64,000 bases of DNA. Source: Clostridia bacterium (GTDB lineage: Bacteria; Bacillota; Clostridia; TANB77; CAG-465). The notes below the pieces were generated by a model. That model was not told where the DNA came from. It saw only the letters and a list, made by a program, of their open reading frames with translations, and ran no database searches. The DNA lies in NCBI GenBank assembly GCA_017534305.1, contig JAFWCU010000034.1:1-64000 (forward strand). Reading direction: 5' to 3'. This document shows, piece after piece, positions 20 through 10,749 of this stretch (position 1 is the stretch's first letter; the number at the start of each line of letters is the position of its first letter). The position numbers and the translations under genes were made by a program.

Positions 20-58
20 AGTAAGAGATGAAAAGAGTTTTTTCTCTCTTACTTTTTT
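20..58 (+). terminator. Terminator of a gene left of the window
   Basis: A 9-bp perfect stem (AGTAAGAGA at 20-28 with TCTCTTACT at 45-53) is followed by a T run on the plus strand. There is no T run in the opposite direction, so it ends a rightward transcript that enters from outside the window. Confidence 0.75.
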
Positions 59-151: not shown

Positions 152-180
152 TTGACAAATTGTTTCTGCGGTGTTATAAT
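152..180 (+). promoter_or_regulatory. Consensus sigma-A promoter of the ncRNA
   Basis: TTGACA (152-157), a 17-bp spacer and TATAAT (175-180) form a perfect consensus promoter. Transcription is expected to start near 187. The only convincing product downstream is the structured RNA described next, since the rightward frames here lack ribosome-binding sites. Confidence 0.85.
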
Positions 181-186
181 ACCTAT

Positions 187-522
187 GAAAATTTGATTTG
201 CACAAAGCAATAAATGATTATTTAAGCCGGTAAAATATTATTTAAATAAATATATTAAAAGATGTACTCCTTAGGTTCACCCCAAAGGATACAACAACTA
301 TAGTTTAATGATATATGTAAAACAATAATTCTTTAAATCTCGGACGCGGGATATTTTATAAAGGTTTATGCCACCCTTTATAATCTGGAGAAAGATTATT
401 GATATATCACTGAACTATTTAATATATAGGCTTGAAAACAAATCATGTTTTCATGTGAGGTATGATAAAATTCATACTTCTTCCTACAAAAAAACAAGAG
501 TCATTGTACCCTTGTTTTTTTC
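187..522 (+). ncRNA. Structured non-coding RNA of unknown family, about 335 nt
   Basis: The stretch lies between a perfect promoter and a terminator and has no credible coding frame. Local hairpins visible by eye are TTGC/GCAA (198-210), TCCTTAGG/CCAAAGGA with one mismatch (268-289), ATCTCG/CGGGAT (337-352), TATAAAGG/CCTTTATA (357-382), ATAATCT/AGATTAT (380-399, overlapping and so competing with the previous stem), TGAAAACA/TGTTTTCA (433-453) and a 9-bp stem at 457-480. I could not match it to RNase P, tmRNA or SRP RNA, because their signature sequences are absent. A 6S-like or other regulatory RNA is possible. The 82-residue frame at 368-616 overlaps it and looks spurious. Confidence 0.65.
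490..519. terminator. Bidirectional terminator between ncRNA and Nudix gene
   Basis: Stem AAACAAG (492-498) pairs with CTTGTTT (511-517). It is flanked by an A run on the left and a T run on the right, so it can end both the rightward ncRNA and the leftward Nudix gene. Confidence 0.75.
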
Positions 523-538
523 GTGCCAATTTTTTATA

Positions 539-943
539 TTATTTTACTTTACTTATATAGTCATTATATGCTTTTTTATACAGTTCTTTAGCATTATCAT
601 AAGTTATTATATCTAGTGCCTCTTTATATGAAAACCATCCGATATTTGCTATTTCTGCGTCTTGTTTTTCTAGTTTTTCTGATTTATTTTTGGCTAAGAA
701 GAATACTACAGTTTTCTCAACATTTTCTTTTGGTGAGTAATGAGATTCATATCTATATTCTTCTATTATATGTATATCTATATTTGTTTCTTCTTTAACT
801 TCTCTTATTGCAGTTTGTGTTTCTGTTTCTCCTGCTTCCATATGGCCTTTTGGGAAGTCCCAATGTCCTGCGTTGTGTTTTACTATTAATACTTTATCTT
901 CATTATTAAAAATAACTGCTCCACATGATTTTTCTTTTGTCAT
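539..943 (-). CDS. Nudix hydrolase, Ap4A-hydrolase-like
   Basis: This 134-residue cytoplasmic protein has a Nudix box at residues 33-55: G33, E39, R47, E48, E51 and E52 are in place, and Asn54 stands where the consensus has Gly. The CGAVIF start and the WDFPKGHMEAGE stretch resemble bis(5'-nucleosyl)-tetraphosphatases (NUDT2 type), which cleave Ap4A and related dinucleotides and may also act on capped RNA. A metal ion bound by the box glutamates is required in this family. The AGGAGG site at 950-955 supports the ATG at 943. It is a single-gene unit, convergent with the ncRNA. The exact substrate is an inference. Confidence 0.88.
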   Translation of the reverse strand: MTKEKSCGAVIFNNEDKVLIVKHNAGHWDFPKGHMEAGETETQTAIREVKEETNIDIHIIEEYRYESHYSPKENVEKTVVFFLAKNKSEKLEKQDAEIANIGWFSYKEALDIITYDNAKELYKKAYNDYISKVK

Positions 944-3751: not shown

Positions 3752-6700
3752 CTATTGATGTGTTTTAAAATATTCTAGTATTAATGATGCGTCATTTGCA
3801 TCAATTAGATTATTTTCATCCATGTCTCCAATTAAAACATCTTCTCTAGTTGTATTTTGTGCTTTGTATAGTTCAAGAGCAACAGATGCATCGTTGGCAT
3901 CAACTACATTGTTTCTGTCTAAATCTCCTTTTATGTATTTAGGCTTTTCAGTATATTTTACGTCAATTGTTTTTGTTGCTGTTGTATTTAATGATGTAAC
4001 TTTACCATTTTTTCCTGTATATGATGCAATTACAGTTGCTTTAATTATTACTTTACCTTGTGCTATAGGTGTAACTACACCTGTTTGAGGATTTATTGTT
4101 GCTACATTTGGATTCAAGCTTTCCCATGCAACATTTATTTCATCTGTGTGGTCTAATGGAGTTATCTTAATATCATATTTTTGATCTCCATCTCCAGTAT
4201 TAATTGTACTTGGTCCAGATATTTCTGCACTTTGAGCATGTTTTACTACTGTTACTTCTTTTGAATCTGAAGCTACTTTTCCATTATTGAATTTTGGATC
4301 AACTGTTGCTGTAACTATTACTTTTCCTGCCTTTTTACCAATTAGTTTTCCGTTTTGATCTATAGTAGCTATAGTTTCATCATTAACACTATATGTTATA
4401 TTGTCTTTAAAAGCTGGAACTTGAGGTGTAACTTGTGCTGTGCACATTATTGAGCTACCTATATTTACAACTATATTTGATGTGTTTAATGTTACCTTAA
4501 TTTTTGAAACATATACTGTTGCGGATTTTGTAATTGGAGCCATTGTATATTCGTTTTCTCCTATCATGTATTTTGGAGTGATTTTTGCACTTATTCTTGT
4601 ATTTCCAACTCCTACAGGTGTTACAATTCCTGTTATTGGATCTACTATTGCAACCTCTTCGTTAGAGCTTGACCATTCTACTTCATATGTATCTGTTGTT
4701 GGCCATCCTGAATGTTTAGGTGATACAGTTACAGTGAACTCTTCATCATCTCCAATATCATACATATTTAGTACTCCATTTACTTTTCCTGTATAAATGT
4801 GATTTAATACATATACTTGATATGAAGCTATTACATCTTTTCCACCTGTATATTCTTTATCCATAGTTGCTGTTATTGTTGCAACTCCTGGTTTTTCACC
4901 ATAAACTGAACCCGAACTTGAAACTGTAGCTATACTTGTATCACTTGAAGTATATGTTATATGGCTACTTGCTCCTGTTACAGCTGGTGTTGGAGAAGCA
5001 GTATTTTGAGTATATTCACCAACGTTTACTTCTCTAAATTCATATTTAAAGTTTAATTCTTTAACTGGTATTGTTACTGTATAATCAAATGTTGCTGTTT
5101 TAGCACTACCACCTTCAATATAATTATTTGATGTGGCTGTTATTGTAACTTTTCCTGCTTTTCCTTTAAATGTTACTAGCCCATTGTTATCTACTGATGC
5201 TATGTTTGTGTTTGATGATTTGTACTTAATTGGTGTGTAATTGTTTTGTGGAGTTCTTGTTAATGTTATTTGGTCAGTTGGGTTTTCATCATCATAAGTT
5301 ATTTCACTGCTTGATCCTGCAATTGATATGCTTTCTAATGGCTCTTGTATATATAGTGCCATATCTGAATATACTCCGGAAGGCACATTTGTTGCTCTAA
5401 GTATAGCATATCCATAATTATTTACTGCGACCGTACCATCATTGTCTTGCAATGATATTACGTCTTCGCCTTGTATTACTTCCCAGTCTGTTTCATTTCC
5501 TAAAGTATTATCTTTAGGAAGAGCTTCTGCTTTAAATTCTACTATATTTGAATTAGTTTTATTTCTTAAATCACTTAGTGATATTATTGCATAGTATGAT
5601 GTTCCATCTTCTGATTGACTATTTGTTGATGTGCTTACGTAATATGCAACTCCTAGTTTTGAAGTAATTCTTACAGATTCTACAGGATTATGTATAGATA
5701 TTTCAACTTCACCTTCATACACACCTTGTTGTGTGGTTGCTATTGCTACCAACTTATATTTATTTCCTGTAGATGAAACTCCAGTTATTTTTACAAATGC
5801 AGATTTGTTTGAATTAGCAAGTCTTACAGATATGTAGTCTTTAATCTTATCATCTGTTAAATCTAAATATACATTAGGTGATTGTTCATCTATTATTTTC
5901 CATTCTACATTTCCTGAATAATTATTTCCTATTTTTGTTACTTTAAACTCTTGTTCAGCATTGGAATCTATTGGCATTTCAACAGGTCCTGCTGGAGTAA
6001 TTGTTACTTTTCCTTTTTTAGTATAAGTATAAAGTGTTATGCTATCTGATTTACCAGATAAATCATGTGTTACTGTTATTGTTATGTTTTTTCCATCTGT
6101 ATAATTTGATGGTATTTGTATTGTACCATTTTGTTTTATTGGAGCAGTACTATCTGAAGATGTCCATGTTATTTTCTTGTTTAGCACTCCTTCATCTATT
6201 ATAGCGTCTAAGTCTATTTCTTCTCCAATTGGTGCATAATATGTTTTTGTTTTACCACTTACTGCAATTAAATCTTTTGTGTCTATTGTTATACTATTTA
6301 ATTGTGTTCCATAATTTGAAGTGTCTGCGTAATCAAAAACTGCTCTATAAGAGTAATTTGCTGTTTTATTTGTATTAGTATTTGTTAAGTTTTTAATTGT
6401 AATTTCATATACAAAACCAGGTTGTGGTACTAGAGTTTCATCTCCAAATATTACCATGTTGATTAGCTCTGATTCACCACTTATTACTCTTTTATAATAT
6501 CTATATCCGTTTCCAGTTTGTGTTGTATCCCAATTCCATGTTTCTCCTGTTTGTATACATCTTACTTCTACATTTGTATTTTCTGTAACTTTATAGTTTT
6601 GATAGAATTTTGCTGACCATCTAAAATAATTATTATCTAGTGTTTCAAGTAGTGTAACACCATTTGCTGATGGCCATGCTACCATTTCTATTCCTTGAGC

Positions 6701-8200
6701 ATTTGCTTGGTCATGTCCTATTTCCATTACACCTATGCTTTTTGCTATACCATAGCCAATATTGCTATTTGATGGTATTAGTAGTGATGTTCTGTGTCCA
6801 AGTCTAAATGGTGTTTCAGAACTATCATCCATAAATTGCTTAATATATTTCATCATTGCATATGTTGATGGTTCTAAGTTGTTTGACATTGCTATATTTT
6901 CTGCAAGAGATACTTGACCATATCCAATTGCTGTTCTATAAAAATCTGTACTTACTCCATCTGGTTTTGCTGGACTGTGTGTTATTTGTAATCCTTCTTC
7001 ATGCCATCTATAACTTTGCAATACTGCCATTGCTTGTGCTTGTGTAAATGCAGTTGCATTTGATGTTACAATTGATAATCCTTGACCAGCTCTTATGGCA
7101 TTATAATATGCTATAATTGCATTTTTCATGTTTGCTTTTAATTCACCTGCATATAGGCTTTCTGCTACATTTGATACAGGTTGATTTTTATATATGCTAC
7201 CTGAGTTTGAATTAAAGAGGCTTAATGCATTAGAATAGTATTGTCTTGCAGAATTAAGTCTTGCTTGCTCTGTTGCAGTTAATGATACACTATCCCATAT
7301 AGTAAATATATTATCTCCTACTACATATGCACTAGCACGTCCAGTGTTTATATCGTAATCAAAAACTCCATATTTAAATCTTTCTGGCATATCTCTATTA
7401 TTTAATGGTTCTGTATAATATAAATTTGCATATATTCCAGGGCTTAATAGATAGTAATTATTTGATGAAGATAAATCATTAAATTCCCATCTAGTTCCTA
7501 TTACCGTTCTATATGGTTGTTTGCCTAAACTATTTGCATAGTTTAATATATGGCTTCCATTTTGCATCATTTGCTCATTTATATAGTGTATTTCTTCATT
7601 AAACTCTATATTACATGTATATCCGTTTGCTGCACATATTGCATTATACATTGCTACTGCATGTTCACTTATACATCTTTGGTAATAAGATGGATTACTA
7701 TAATATGTAGATTTAAATAACTCTATTGTTGCATTTGCATTTCTATTTATATATTTATTCCAGTTATAATAAATACCACCTTTTACTTTTGATTCTGTTC
7801 CATTATTAAATACTAGTCCACATAGTGGCCAGTTTGCTTGATATGGATATGCTTCATCATATCCAGAATTATATACTTCATATCCAGGAGTTACTGTACC
7901 AAATGAAATGATACCATTGTCTCCTGCAAGTGTTTCTATATACAGGTAATTTGAATAATTATTATCTGTATAAAATGTATATGCATGTCCTCCAAAGCAG
8001 CTATCTGTTGTTATTTTAGGCTCGCCAAACTTTTGAATTATTTGATCTATTGTTGTTGTGTTTGTTATAGTATAATCCATTGTTGATGTATGGATTCTTA
8101 TTAGATCGGTTTGGTTTGGAAGTGCTGCGTATGCATTATGTGTCATACATAGCATTGCACATACTACTAATGATAATAAAACAATCTTTACTCTTTTCAT
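3752..8200 (-). CDS. Large secreted CAP-domain protein with BIG_2 repeats and dockerin
   Basis: I start it at the ATG at 8200, where AAGGTGA is well placed; an upstream in-frame codon adds 18 residues without a site. The product has about 1482 residues: a signal peptide (1-25, ending AYA); a CAP-associated N-terminal region with an FGGHAYTFY stretch; a CAP/SCP domain at ~360-500 with ITHSP, AENIA, GHRTSLL and IGYGIA supplying the usual His, Glu and His; about eight Ig-like BIG_2 repeats (~620-1410, with SSN/SSD...ATVD patterns); and a C-terminal dockerin. CAP proteins of bacteria are secreted and of varied role, and no enzymatic activity can be assigned. The BIG_2 stalk suggests the CAP domain is held away from the cell. 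It forms its own unit with a terminator after it. Confidence 0.88.
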   Translation of the reverse strand: MKRVKIVLLSLVVCAMLCMTHNAYAALPNQTDLIRIHTSTMDYTITNTTTIDQIIQKFGEPKITTDSCFGGHAYTFYTDNNYSNYLYIETLAGDNGIISFGTVTPGYEVYNSGYDEAYPYQANWPLCGLVFNNGTESKVKGGIYYNWNKYINRNANATIELFKSTYYSNPSYYQRCISEHAVAMYNAICAANGYTCNIEFNEEIHYINEQMMQNGSHILNYANSLGKQPYRTVIGTRWEFNDLSSSNNYYLLSPGIYANLYYTEPLNNRDMPERFKYGVFDYDINTGRASAYVVGDNIFTIWDSVSLTATEQARLNSARQYYSNALSLFNSNSGSIYKNQPVSNVAESLYAGELKANMKNAIIAYYNAIRAGQGLSIVTSNATAFTQAQAMAVLQSYRWHEEGLQITHSPAKPDGVSTDFYRTAIGYGQVSLAENIAMSNNLEPSTYAMMKYIKQFMDDSSETPFRLGHRTSLLIPSNSNIGYGIAKSIGVMEIGHDQANAQGIEMVAWPSANGVTLLETLDNNYFRWSAKFYQNYKVTENTNVEVRCIQTGETWNWDTTQTGNGYRYYKRVISGESELINMVIFGDETLVPQPGFVYEITIKNLTNTNTNKTANYSYRAVFDYADTSNYGTQLNSITIDTKDLIAVSGKTKTYYAPIGEEIDLDAIIDEGVLNKKITWTSSDSTAPIKQNGTIQIPSNYTDGKNITITVTHDLSGKSDSITLYTYTKKGKVTITPAGPVEMPIDSNAEQEFKVTKIGNNYSGNVEWKIIDEQSPNVYLDLTDDKIKDYISVRLANSNKSAFVKITGVSSTGNKYKLVAIATTQQGVYEGEVEISIHNPVESVRITSKLGVAYYVSTSTNSQSEDGTSYYAIISLSDLRNKTNSNIVEFKAEALPKDNTLGNETDWEVIQGEDVISLQDNDGTVAVNNYGYAILRATNVPSGVYSDMALYIQEPLESISIAGSSSEITYDDENPTDQITLTRTPQNNYTPIKYKSSNTNIASVDNNGLVTFKGKAGKVTITATSNNYIEGGSAKTATFDYTVTIPVKELNFKYEFREVNVGEYTQNTASPTPAVTGASSHITYTSSDTSIATVSSSGSVYGEKPGVATITATMDKEYTGGKDVIASYQVYVLNHIYTGKVNGVLNMYDIGDDEEFTVTVSPKHSGWPTTDTYEVEWSSSNEEVAIVDPITGIVTPVGVGNTRISAKITPKYMIGENEYTMAPITKSATVYVSKIKVTLNTSNIVVNIGSSIMCTAQVTPQVPAFKDNITYSVNDETIATIDQNGKLIGKKAGKVIVTATVDPKFNNGKVASDSKEVTVVKHAQSAEISGPSTINTGDGDQKYDIKITPLDHTDEINVAWESLNPNVATINPQTGVVTPIAQGKVIIKATVIASYTGKNGKVTSLNTTATKTIDVKYTEKPKYIKGDLDRNNVVDANDASVALELYKAQNTTREDVLIGDMDENNLIDANDASLILEYFKTHQ

Positions 8201-8264
8201 ATATTTCACCTTTCTTATACTAAAAATTTTATCATTATAAAATAAAATCTTCAATAAATAATTG

Positions 8265-8448: not shown

Positions 8449-10749
8449 TTAATGTGTTTTGAAATATTCTAGAATTAAACTTGCGTCATTTGCATCAATT
8501 AAATCATTTTCGTCCATATCTCCAATTAAAACATCTTCAAATGTTGCATTTTGATCTTTATATAATTCCAATGCTACTGATGCATCATTTGCATCTATTA
8601 CTCCATTTCTATCTAAATCACCAATTTTTATTACTGGTGGATCTATTGGCCCAGGAGGATCATCTGGATTTTCTCCTGAATCATTTACTGTTATTGCTAC
8701 TATTTTATATATGTTTGGATCTTCTTCGCAATATATTGTAATTTCTGCATTTCCATTACTTTTTGCTTCAATTAAACCATTTTGTCTTACAGTTACTACT
8801 TCTTCATTTGATGATGAATATTTAATTAATCTATTGTTTAGGTTTTGATAATTATTTAAAGTTGTATTTATTTTATATGTATCCCCTACTTTTAATATTT
8901 TGGCGTCTATATCTGTTGTAATACTTACATCACTTGTGTCGTTTATACTGTTTGGACAATTTAAAAATACTGATCTATATGTATAGTCTTCAAATTGATT
9001 TGTTCTTAAATTTTTTACATTATGTATTGTGATTTCAAATACATCTCCAGATTCATATGTTACTTCATCTGCATCCCATGATACTAGACGTGAATCTGTT
9101 ATTTCGTTATTAAATTCATATGTTTTTTGAGCAGATAGATTATTTACTGTTATACTATTAACGTTTGTAGTGTCATAGTTATATCTGAAAAATTGTGCTG
9201 TCCAATTTCCTATTCCACCCGCTATTGCATTTATTAATGTTACACCGTTTGCAGGCCACGCTACTAAATCGTTTTGTGTTGCAGTGGAACCTATAAATTT
9301 ATGGCATGTCTGTGTTTGATATACAAATCCAGGTCCTGCTTGCCCTACACCCCACTCGGTATAGTCTGGCTCTATAAGGTTATATCTATGACCACAATAT
9401 ACTGGATCACCACTTCTATCATTTAAAGCATAGCTTATGCTTGAAATATAGCTTCCCATATATAGATTTTCCCCTACGCCATTCATAGCTTTATCATAAA
9501 AATCTTGATCTACAAAATCTGGCTTTGGAAAATAGTGTGAATATGTTCCACTTGTTGAATTATTTAAGTATAAAACTAATACTGATTTATTTTGAGCTCC
9601 TTCACATAATCTTTGATTAGATGTTAGTGGTTGCAATTCTTGACCACATCTTATTACATTTAAAAACAATGTTGCAGATTCTATTGCTTTTGGATTCATT
9701 TGACCTGCTACTAATGGTAGTCTATCATATACGGGTTCGGTTATCCATAAATTTTCATTTTTTAATGTTTCGCCTTGCTCTAAATATTCATTATATGCTT
9801 GTTTTACTTGTTCTATTAAGTTGCTTTCTCTTTCTGTTAATTCAACATATTGCTTCTTTTGTAAGAAAGTTGGATCAACAAATACTCCTTCTACTAGCCC
9901 TTGTGCTGTTTGATAGCTCGGTTCATATTTGTCTATTCTTGTGTTAAATACAAAATATGGATATGTTTCTTCATTATTTGTATACCCTACTGTATATTGT
10001 GCAAGATATAATGGGTTTGGATAACATTCAACATATTCTATTTTTTGACTTGCTGTAAAGCTTAAATATGAAGATTTTTCTGAGTTTAATGAATATTCTG
10101 TTATACTTTGTGACACTCCATTTAATTGTTCAACTACATCTAATATATCTTGAGAAGATGCATTTTGGTTAAATGGGTTAGTTGTTTTATCATTTATCTT
10201 ATTTGCTACTTTACTAATTACTATGGCACTCTCTTGCATTGATTCTAGGTATTTGTCTTGGCTTGCCATGTAATTTGTCCAGTAATTCTTTCTTTCTTGT
10301 TCTGTTAAATTTGTATATCCATAAAATCCTAATACTTTATCTGTATTTGCAAAAAAATCCATATAGTGTAACCTTGTACCTTGTAGGAAAACTATTCTGT
10401 CGTCATTTTCTTGACCATATCTATAATTATTTGATACAAAGTCTCTTGAGGCACCACCATATGCTTTTATTGCTCCTTGTTCATTTGTTTCAATTTGTAA
10501 TACCCAATTATACTCGTTATCATAAAAGGTATATGCCTTTCCTCCAAATGGTGAATCTTTTGTTATTTTAGGATCTCCAAACATATTTTTTAACTGATCT
10601 ACATTTGTAGCAGATGATATTGTTTTTGAATTAATTTTAAATATTTGGTTTCCACTTAGGTTTTGAGCATATATGGTATTACTTTTTATACACACTAACA
10701 CAATAAGTGCAATTAATACTTGAATAAATATCTTTTGTTTAATCTTCAT
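8449..10749 (-). CDS. Secreted CAP-domain protein with dockerin
   Basis: The protein has 766 residues. It has a signal peptide (1-28, ending IYA), a CAP-associated N-terminal region with FGDPKITKDSPFGGKAY closely matching the neighbouring large CAP protein, and a CAP domain at ~360-485 with YSHYF, GENLY, CGHRYNL and WGVGQ motifs. One BIG_2-like module follows (~640-695), then a proline-rich linker, then the dockerin. It has the same domain order as the proteins at 3752 and 56883 but only a single Ig-like repeat. The linker DDPPGPIDPP before the dockerin is unique in the window. GGGAGAAG precedes the ATG. It is a single-gene unit. Confidence 0.87.
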   Translation of the reverse strand: MKIKQKIFIQVLIALIVLVCIKSNTIYAQNLSGNQIFKINSKTISSATNVDQLKNMFGDPKITKDSPFGGKAYTFYDNEYNWVLQIETNEQGAIKAYGGASRDFVSNNYRYGQENDDRIVFLQGTRLHYMDFFANTDKVLGFYGYTNLTEQERKNYWTNYMASQDKYLESMQESAIVISKVANKINDKTTNPFNQNASSQDILDVVEQLNGVSQSITEYSLNSEKSSYLSFTASQKIEYVECYPNPLYLAQYTVGYTNNEETYPYFVFNTRIDKYEPSYQTAQGLVEGVFVDPTFLQKKQYVELTERESNLIEQVKQAYNEYLEQGETLKNENLWITEPVYDRLPLVAGQMNPKAIESATLFLNVIRCGQELQPLTSNQRLCEGAQNKSVLVLYLNNSTSGTYSHYFPKPDFVDQDFYDKAMNGVGENLYMGSYISSISYALNDRSGDPVYCGHRYNLIEPDYTEWGVGQAGPGFVYQTQTCHKFIGSTATQNDLVAWPANGVTLINAIAGGIGNWTAQFFRYNYDTTNVNSITVNNLSAQKTYEFNNEITDSRLVSWDADEVTYESGDVFEITIHNVKNLRTNQFEDYTYRSVFLNCPNSINDTSDVSITTDIDAKILKVGDTYKINTTLNNYQNLNNRLIKYSSSNEEVVTVRQNGLIEAKSNGNAEITIYCEEDPNIYKIVAITVNDSGENPDDPPGPIDPPVIKIGDLDRNGVIDANDASVALELYKDQNATFEDVLIGDMDENDLIDANDASLILEYFKTH

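Follow-up and report, generated by a model that had tools for sequence, protein, structure and literature searches.

A candidate family of structured non-coding RNAs beside a dif-like site in uncultured Clostridia

What is encoded in a short stretch of a Clostridia genome that lies between a strong promoter and a terminator, is predicted to fold extensively and does not lead into a protein gene? The DNA analyzed here, called the window in the following, is a stretch of 64,000 nucleotides that starts at one end of C28, a contig of a 1.6-Mb MAG (G000). A first-pass annotation had described a highly promoted structured RNA of unknown family close to this end, and the description survived all tests that were run on it, namely Rfam searches, conservation, covariation and the retention of promoter and terminator. 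The features that are needed for the argument are listed below.

21–58, plus strand: probably terminates a paralogous RNA further upstream that is truncated by the contig end; same hairpin in G017
152–180, plus strand: extended sigma-A-type promoter TTGACA-N17-TATAAT with TG before the −10 hexamer; 12/12 match
187–521, plus strand: non-coding RNA gene of about 335 nt; fold z-score, identity in G017 and 14 syntenic members
323–401, plus strand: three-way-junction core; match of model R1 at 324–400 with 55.3 bits, and covariation
323–334 with 391–401, plus strand: helix P5 of the core, enclosing hairpin 1 (337–352) and hairpin 2 (356–383), with the conserved strand unpaired
382–394, plus strand: conserved purine-rich junction strand AATCTGGAGAAAG; exact in G017 and G013, small changes in G003, G005 and G015
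488–521, plus strand: intrinsic terminator with an A-run/T-run stem and low GC; seen in the fold and kept in G017
539–943, minus strand: gene for a NUDIX hydrolase (PF00293, 5.7e-23) that is convergent with the RNA next to it and served as anchor for synteny

Promoter, limits and fold of the RNA

The promoter had been called perfect, which its 12/12 match and the additional TG confirm. The 64-kb window contains six promoters of this quality, where a first-order Markov control predicts 0.08, so the RNA promoter can be regarded as real, though not as unique. The five others are all located on the minus strand (46804, 42850, 41414, 14207 and 2283), three of them also carry the TG before the −10 hexamer, and their number is far above chance.

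From the sequence analysis of the window the RNA is predicted to start at about 187 and to end at about 521. A terminator is indeed present at the end of this stretch (AAAAAAACAAG...CTTGTTTTTTT, as seen in the fold), but to call it perfect, as had been done, is too strong: it has few G-C pairs, which is apparently why a consensus terminator scanner did not call it. It probably works in both directions. No protein gene follows on the same strand, in line with the annotation, as the next gene is the convergent NUDIX gene. The hairpin at 21–58 has a counterpart in G017, where it closes a promoter-terminator unit of about 235 nt (L031, ~9271–9505), and therefore the window copy probably terminates a paralogue located upstream.

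The minimum free energy of the window RNA is −83.6 kcal/mol compared to −53.4 ± 5.0 kcal/mol for shuffled sequences (z = −6.05), with none of 100 shuffles being as low, and z is still −4.4 without the terminator; a structured RNA of about 335 nt between promoter and terminator, as proposed, is thus well founded. Local hairpins were predicted at approximately 211–244, 260–293, 337–352, 356–383, 460–483 and 488–521, with long-range helices besides, and the overall predicted fold is multi-branched with a three-way junction and a long closing helix around it. The core begins with helix P5 and hairpin 1, to which hairpin 2 is joined by an AUUU linker, and it ends with the strand AAUCUGGAGRRA and the strand that returns to P5; the strand between hairpin 2 and P5 is predicted to be open (AAUCUGGAG). 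The annotation had also proposed two competing hairpins (357–382 against 380–399). The sequences of G000, G017 and G020 allow the competitor at 380–399 (ATAATC...GATTAT), those of G013, G003 and G005 do not; it is therefore no feature of the family, and a switch between both hairpins was rejected.

Members of the family and covariation

In G017 (public contig CAMVON010000001.1, uncultured Clostridiaceae) the window RNA is kept at 96% identity. A nucleotide comparison of G000 and G017 showed that the conserved block takes in both promoter hexamers (−35 and −10) as well as the transcript, with a promoter spacer that has diverged freely, and the adjoining NUDIX proteins are 84% identical. Five stem pairs are changed between the two genomes, all five of which are still paired and none broken. 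As the nucleotide search for homologues found none except G017, synteny based on the NUDIX neighbour and its flank was used instead. Eight further species were identified in this way in which a structured stretch lies between a promoter and a U-run terminator, the whole being convergent to NUDIX, with the sigma-A promoter being located 330–455 bp before the NUDIX stop codon and being weaker in G021.

In total this gives 14 syntenic members in 10 of the 28 species of the genus, arranged as one to three tandem copies per locus (three in G015, two each in G005 and G021), and each of them, tandem copies included, has its own promoter and terminator. The further upstream promoter-terminator unit of G017 was left out of this count because its fold without the terminator is no better than chance. 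All 14 members fold better than shuffled sequences, with z between −3.4 and −8.7, or between −2.1 and −6.8 without the terminator. Outside G017 the identity to the window RNA is about 42–50% (MAFFT), and with ~45–50% identity between subtypes the sequences diverge fast; the junction motif is missing from some paralogues (G015c, G010). All carriers belong to one clade of 14 species (98/97 support), within which the RNA is absent beside the dif-like site described below in G012 and G026; for G006 and G004 contig ends do not permit a decision. Altogether 18 of the 28 species have no recognised copy.

The core was aligned from nine members, with loops and one bulge being trimmed by hand and the diverged copy G015a being left out, as it spoiled the alignment under MAFFT. 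In this alignment 95.9% of the cells are paired and 17 of 22 pairs show two-sided changes; none of 500 shuffles was as good, and sliding the partners destroys the pairing. Because of the hand trimming the count was repeated on the untrimmed, model-aligned sequences, giving 94.4% paired and again 17 of 22 pairs with two-sided changes, and on the four short-arm members alone (98.9% paired; 9 of 22 pairs). Furthermore, independent paralogue pairs that were folded without any hand alignment revealed 14, 13 and 5 compensatory pairs. The comparison with related genomes that had been suggested in the first-pass annotation thus did bring out compensatory changes. A core model built from the four short-arm members did not recognise the long-arm subtypes in cross-validation, so that the latter are taken as homologous on the basis of their synteny, promoter, terminator, motif and geometry.

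Searching 238 genomes from 41 genera of the order with the core model gave matches only at members of the RNA locus, and a concatenated query for a second locus in the genus found nothing beyond short chance pieces. Collections of genomes, viruses, phages and plasmids were also scanned by pattern and by similarity, and no further member was found: two new Clostridia matches from the genome collections were rejected as they are without promoter and fold, the remaining pattern matches outside the genus in the genome-collection and viral scans look like chance, and exact matches to the motif AATCTGGARRRAR at places other than the locus are embedded in sequence that seems unrelated and has no promoter-fold context. 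In the collections scanned the family thus appears to be restricted to the genus.

Neither a search of the whole window against Rfam at gathering scores nor one of eight relatives at E values up to 1 gave a match, and in the first kilobase of the window E values up to 10 returned only chance-level matches far below the cut-offs, in agreement with the proposed unknown family. Likewise, the signatures of RNase P RNA, tmRNA and SRP RNA had been described as missing, and the covariance models for all three are negative in the window and the relatives; the RNA is also no universal single-copy gene, being absent in several close relatives and duplicated in others. For 6S RNA (RF00013) the covariance model is negative in the window and the relatives as well, and the fold is multi-branched and not a single long hairpin with a central bulge. 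A 6S-like RNA that scores below the Rfam cut-off is located elsewhere in 22 of the 28 genomes, including G000, G017, G020 and G007. The raiA/ModT model (RF03072) found nothing in the window at E values up to 10 and nothing in the 28 genomes at E values up to 1. A cis-acting riboswitch or leader was rejected since no co-directional gene follows and NUDIX is convergent after the terminator in all carriers. A classical Hfq-dependent sRNA is unlikely, as Hfq was found in none of the 28 genomes and the control genomes were positive. The family may be among the unnamed candidates of published RNA predictions from the human microbiome (PMC8040213).

The dif-like site and its neighbourhood

In most carriers the order is a XerC-like recombinase gene, a 27-bp element (TTTCRCAAAATTATTATTTTGCGCAAT), the RNA or RNAs, and NUDIX. 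This element was found exactly once in 27 of 57 genomes, which extend to other families of the order, and no genome has more than one copy; in G017 the GC skew flips at the element from +0.18 to −0.13. Single copy, neighbouring xer gene and skew switch suggest that the element behaves as a dif site. The distance between the RNA promoter and the dif-like site as computed from the coordinates is 205–286 bp in seven of nine genomes and is lengthened by insertions in G013 and G017; in G000 the site presumably sits past the contig end.

The vicinity of the site shows several further features. The dif-like element adjoins the XerC-like gene across several families of the order (for example at L031 8786–8812 and L101 8657–8683), an arrangement resembling XerS/difSL modules. 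The recombinase gene on the minus strand has a conserved promoter (TTGACT...TATGATATATT) ~280–340 nt before its start codon (L096 10203–10497 in flipped coordinates, and equivalents), and the resulting long leader is conserved in part. A second RNA on this side was considered and rejected, as no family match was obtained for the ~280–340 nt, which were kept as leader. Near the terminus the window also encodes secreted proteins with dockerin-type repeats (2395–2991 and 3752–8254), one of them with a weak cohesin-like match, and in G017 a sortase, pilin-like genes and genes for large surface proteins are located on the other side of the dif-like site.

Proposed function and comparison with known systems

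At the sequence level the locus combines promoter, terminator, fold, covariation, synteny, duplication and absence from Rfam, and the best explanation, to which we would give a probability of about 0.6, is that the locus is a stand-alone gene whose product, a structured non-coding RNA, belongs to a new family confined to the genus and most likely acts in trans. From the promoter we infer that housekeeping sigma-A would drive the RNA, with transcription stopping at the intrinsic terminator. The transcript would fold into a long closing helix around the three-way junction and display the unpaired AAUCUGGAGRRA strand, which may bind a protein or another RNA and thereby regulate it in trans, a mode for which the sigma-A-driven, trans-acting ModT/raiA of other Clostridia could serve as precedent. 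Tandem duplication at the dif-adjacent locus might then provide an extra dose or specialised variants.

The same position could also be taken to mean that the RNA has a role in chromosome termination or dimer resolution, either as a dif-linked checkpoint or as a regulator of Xer. Its fixed place beside a single-copy dif-like site and a XerC-like gene, the skew switch at that site and the precedent of Rcd (PMC5357621) would fit such a role, and by analogy the RNA might be a chromosomal counterpart of Rcd, tandem-amplified at the terminus and coupling replication termination or dimer resolution to the cell cycle. We consider both versions doubtful: the neighbourhood is the sole link, most of the 18 species without a recognised copy keep xer and many of them the site too, and the RNA is more than four times as long as Rcd, does not overlap with the site and is separated from it by insertions in G013 and G017. 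A highly diverged known family, such as raiA/ModT or a second 6S RNA, which Rfam models fail to see in AT-rich sequence, is likewise unlikely. raiA/ModT is of a similar size class, has a sigma-A promoter and is a stand-alone gene, and as it was not found anywhere in the genus an analogue is thinkable; however, the Rfam searches were negative even at permissive E values, a 6S-like RNA already exists elsewhere in most of the genomes, and an RNA that is duplicated in tandem and restricted to one clade does not resemble RNase P RNA, tmRNA or SRP RNA.

It is also rather improbable that transcription matters in cis and the RNA product is incidental, even if the gene is convergent with NUDIX in all ten carriers and transcription of the plus strand opposes the fork on that replichore near dif. 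Compensatory changes in internal helices require a functional RNA product, the terminators end before the NUDIX coding region, and the outer copies of the tandem arrays are unable to act on NUDIX. Least of all do we expect a mobile element making use of Xer and dif, of which the RNA would be a remnant or satellite: the dif-adjacent position would be in line with it, as would the additional genes that were inserted close by in G013 and G017, but there is one dif-like site per genome with no second flanking site, no integrase besides the conserved xer gene, and no match in phages, plasmids or the viral pattern scan.

A stand-alone, trans-acting RNA as preferred here would give uncultured gut Clostridia a further RNA family that is supported by covariation and missing from Rfam, and whose naturally occurring tandem paralogues can be compared. 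Its steady place next to the Xer gene and the dif-like site also makes it a clear candidate for asking whether chromosomes, like ColE1, encode an RNA tied to dimer resolution.

With 6S RNA, a long hairpin of ~190 nt with a central bulge, the window RNA would share a stand-alone, housekeeping-type gene with possible paralogues, but in most of these genomes the 6S-like RNA occupies a different locus. ROOL, GOLLD and OLE are also large structured bacterial RNAs, several hundred nucleotides long and found in phage or membrane-protein contexts, from which the window RNA differs in having no Rfam match. In ColE1 the Xer site cer gives rise to a small RNA, Rcd, which resembles the window RNA as an RNA gene at a Xer recombination site (PMC5357621). 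Rcd has 70 nt and lies inside cer, whereas the window RNA has ~335 nt and its family is located beside the dif-like site and not inside it; a link in role, for which induction by dimers and a delay of division would be typical, is only a candidate. In C. difficile ModT/raiA is a sigma-A-driven, stand-alone RNA that acts in trans (PMC11706538). The window RNA differs from it in its greater length, its restriction to one genus, its tandem copies, fast divergence and dif-adjacent position and in the missing covariance match. Both are stand-alone structured RNAs of Clostridia with a sigma-A promoter and no need of a downstream gene, and raiA/ModT is known as a trans-acting, stable and abundant RNA.
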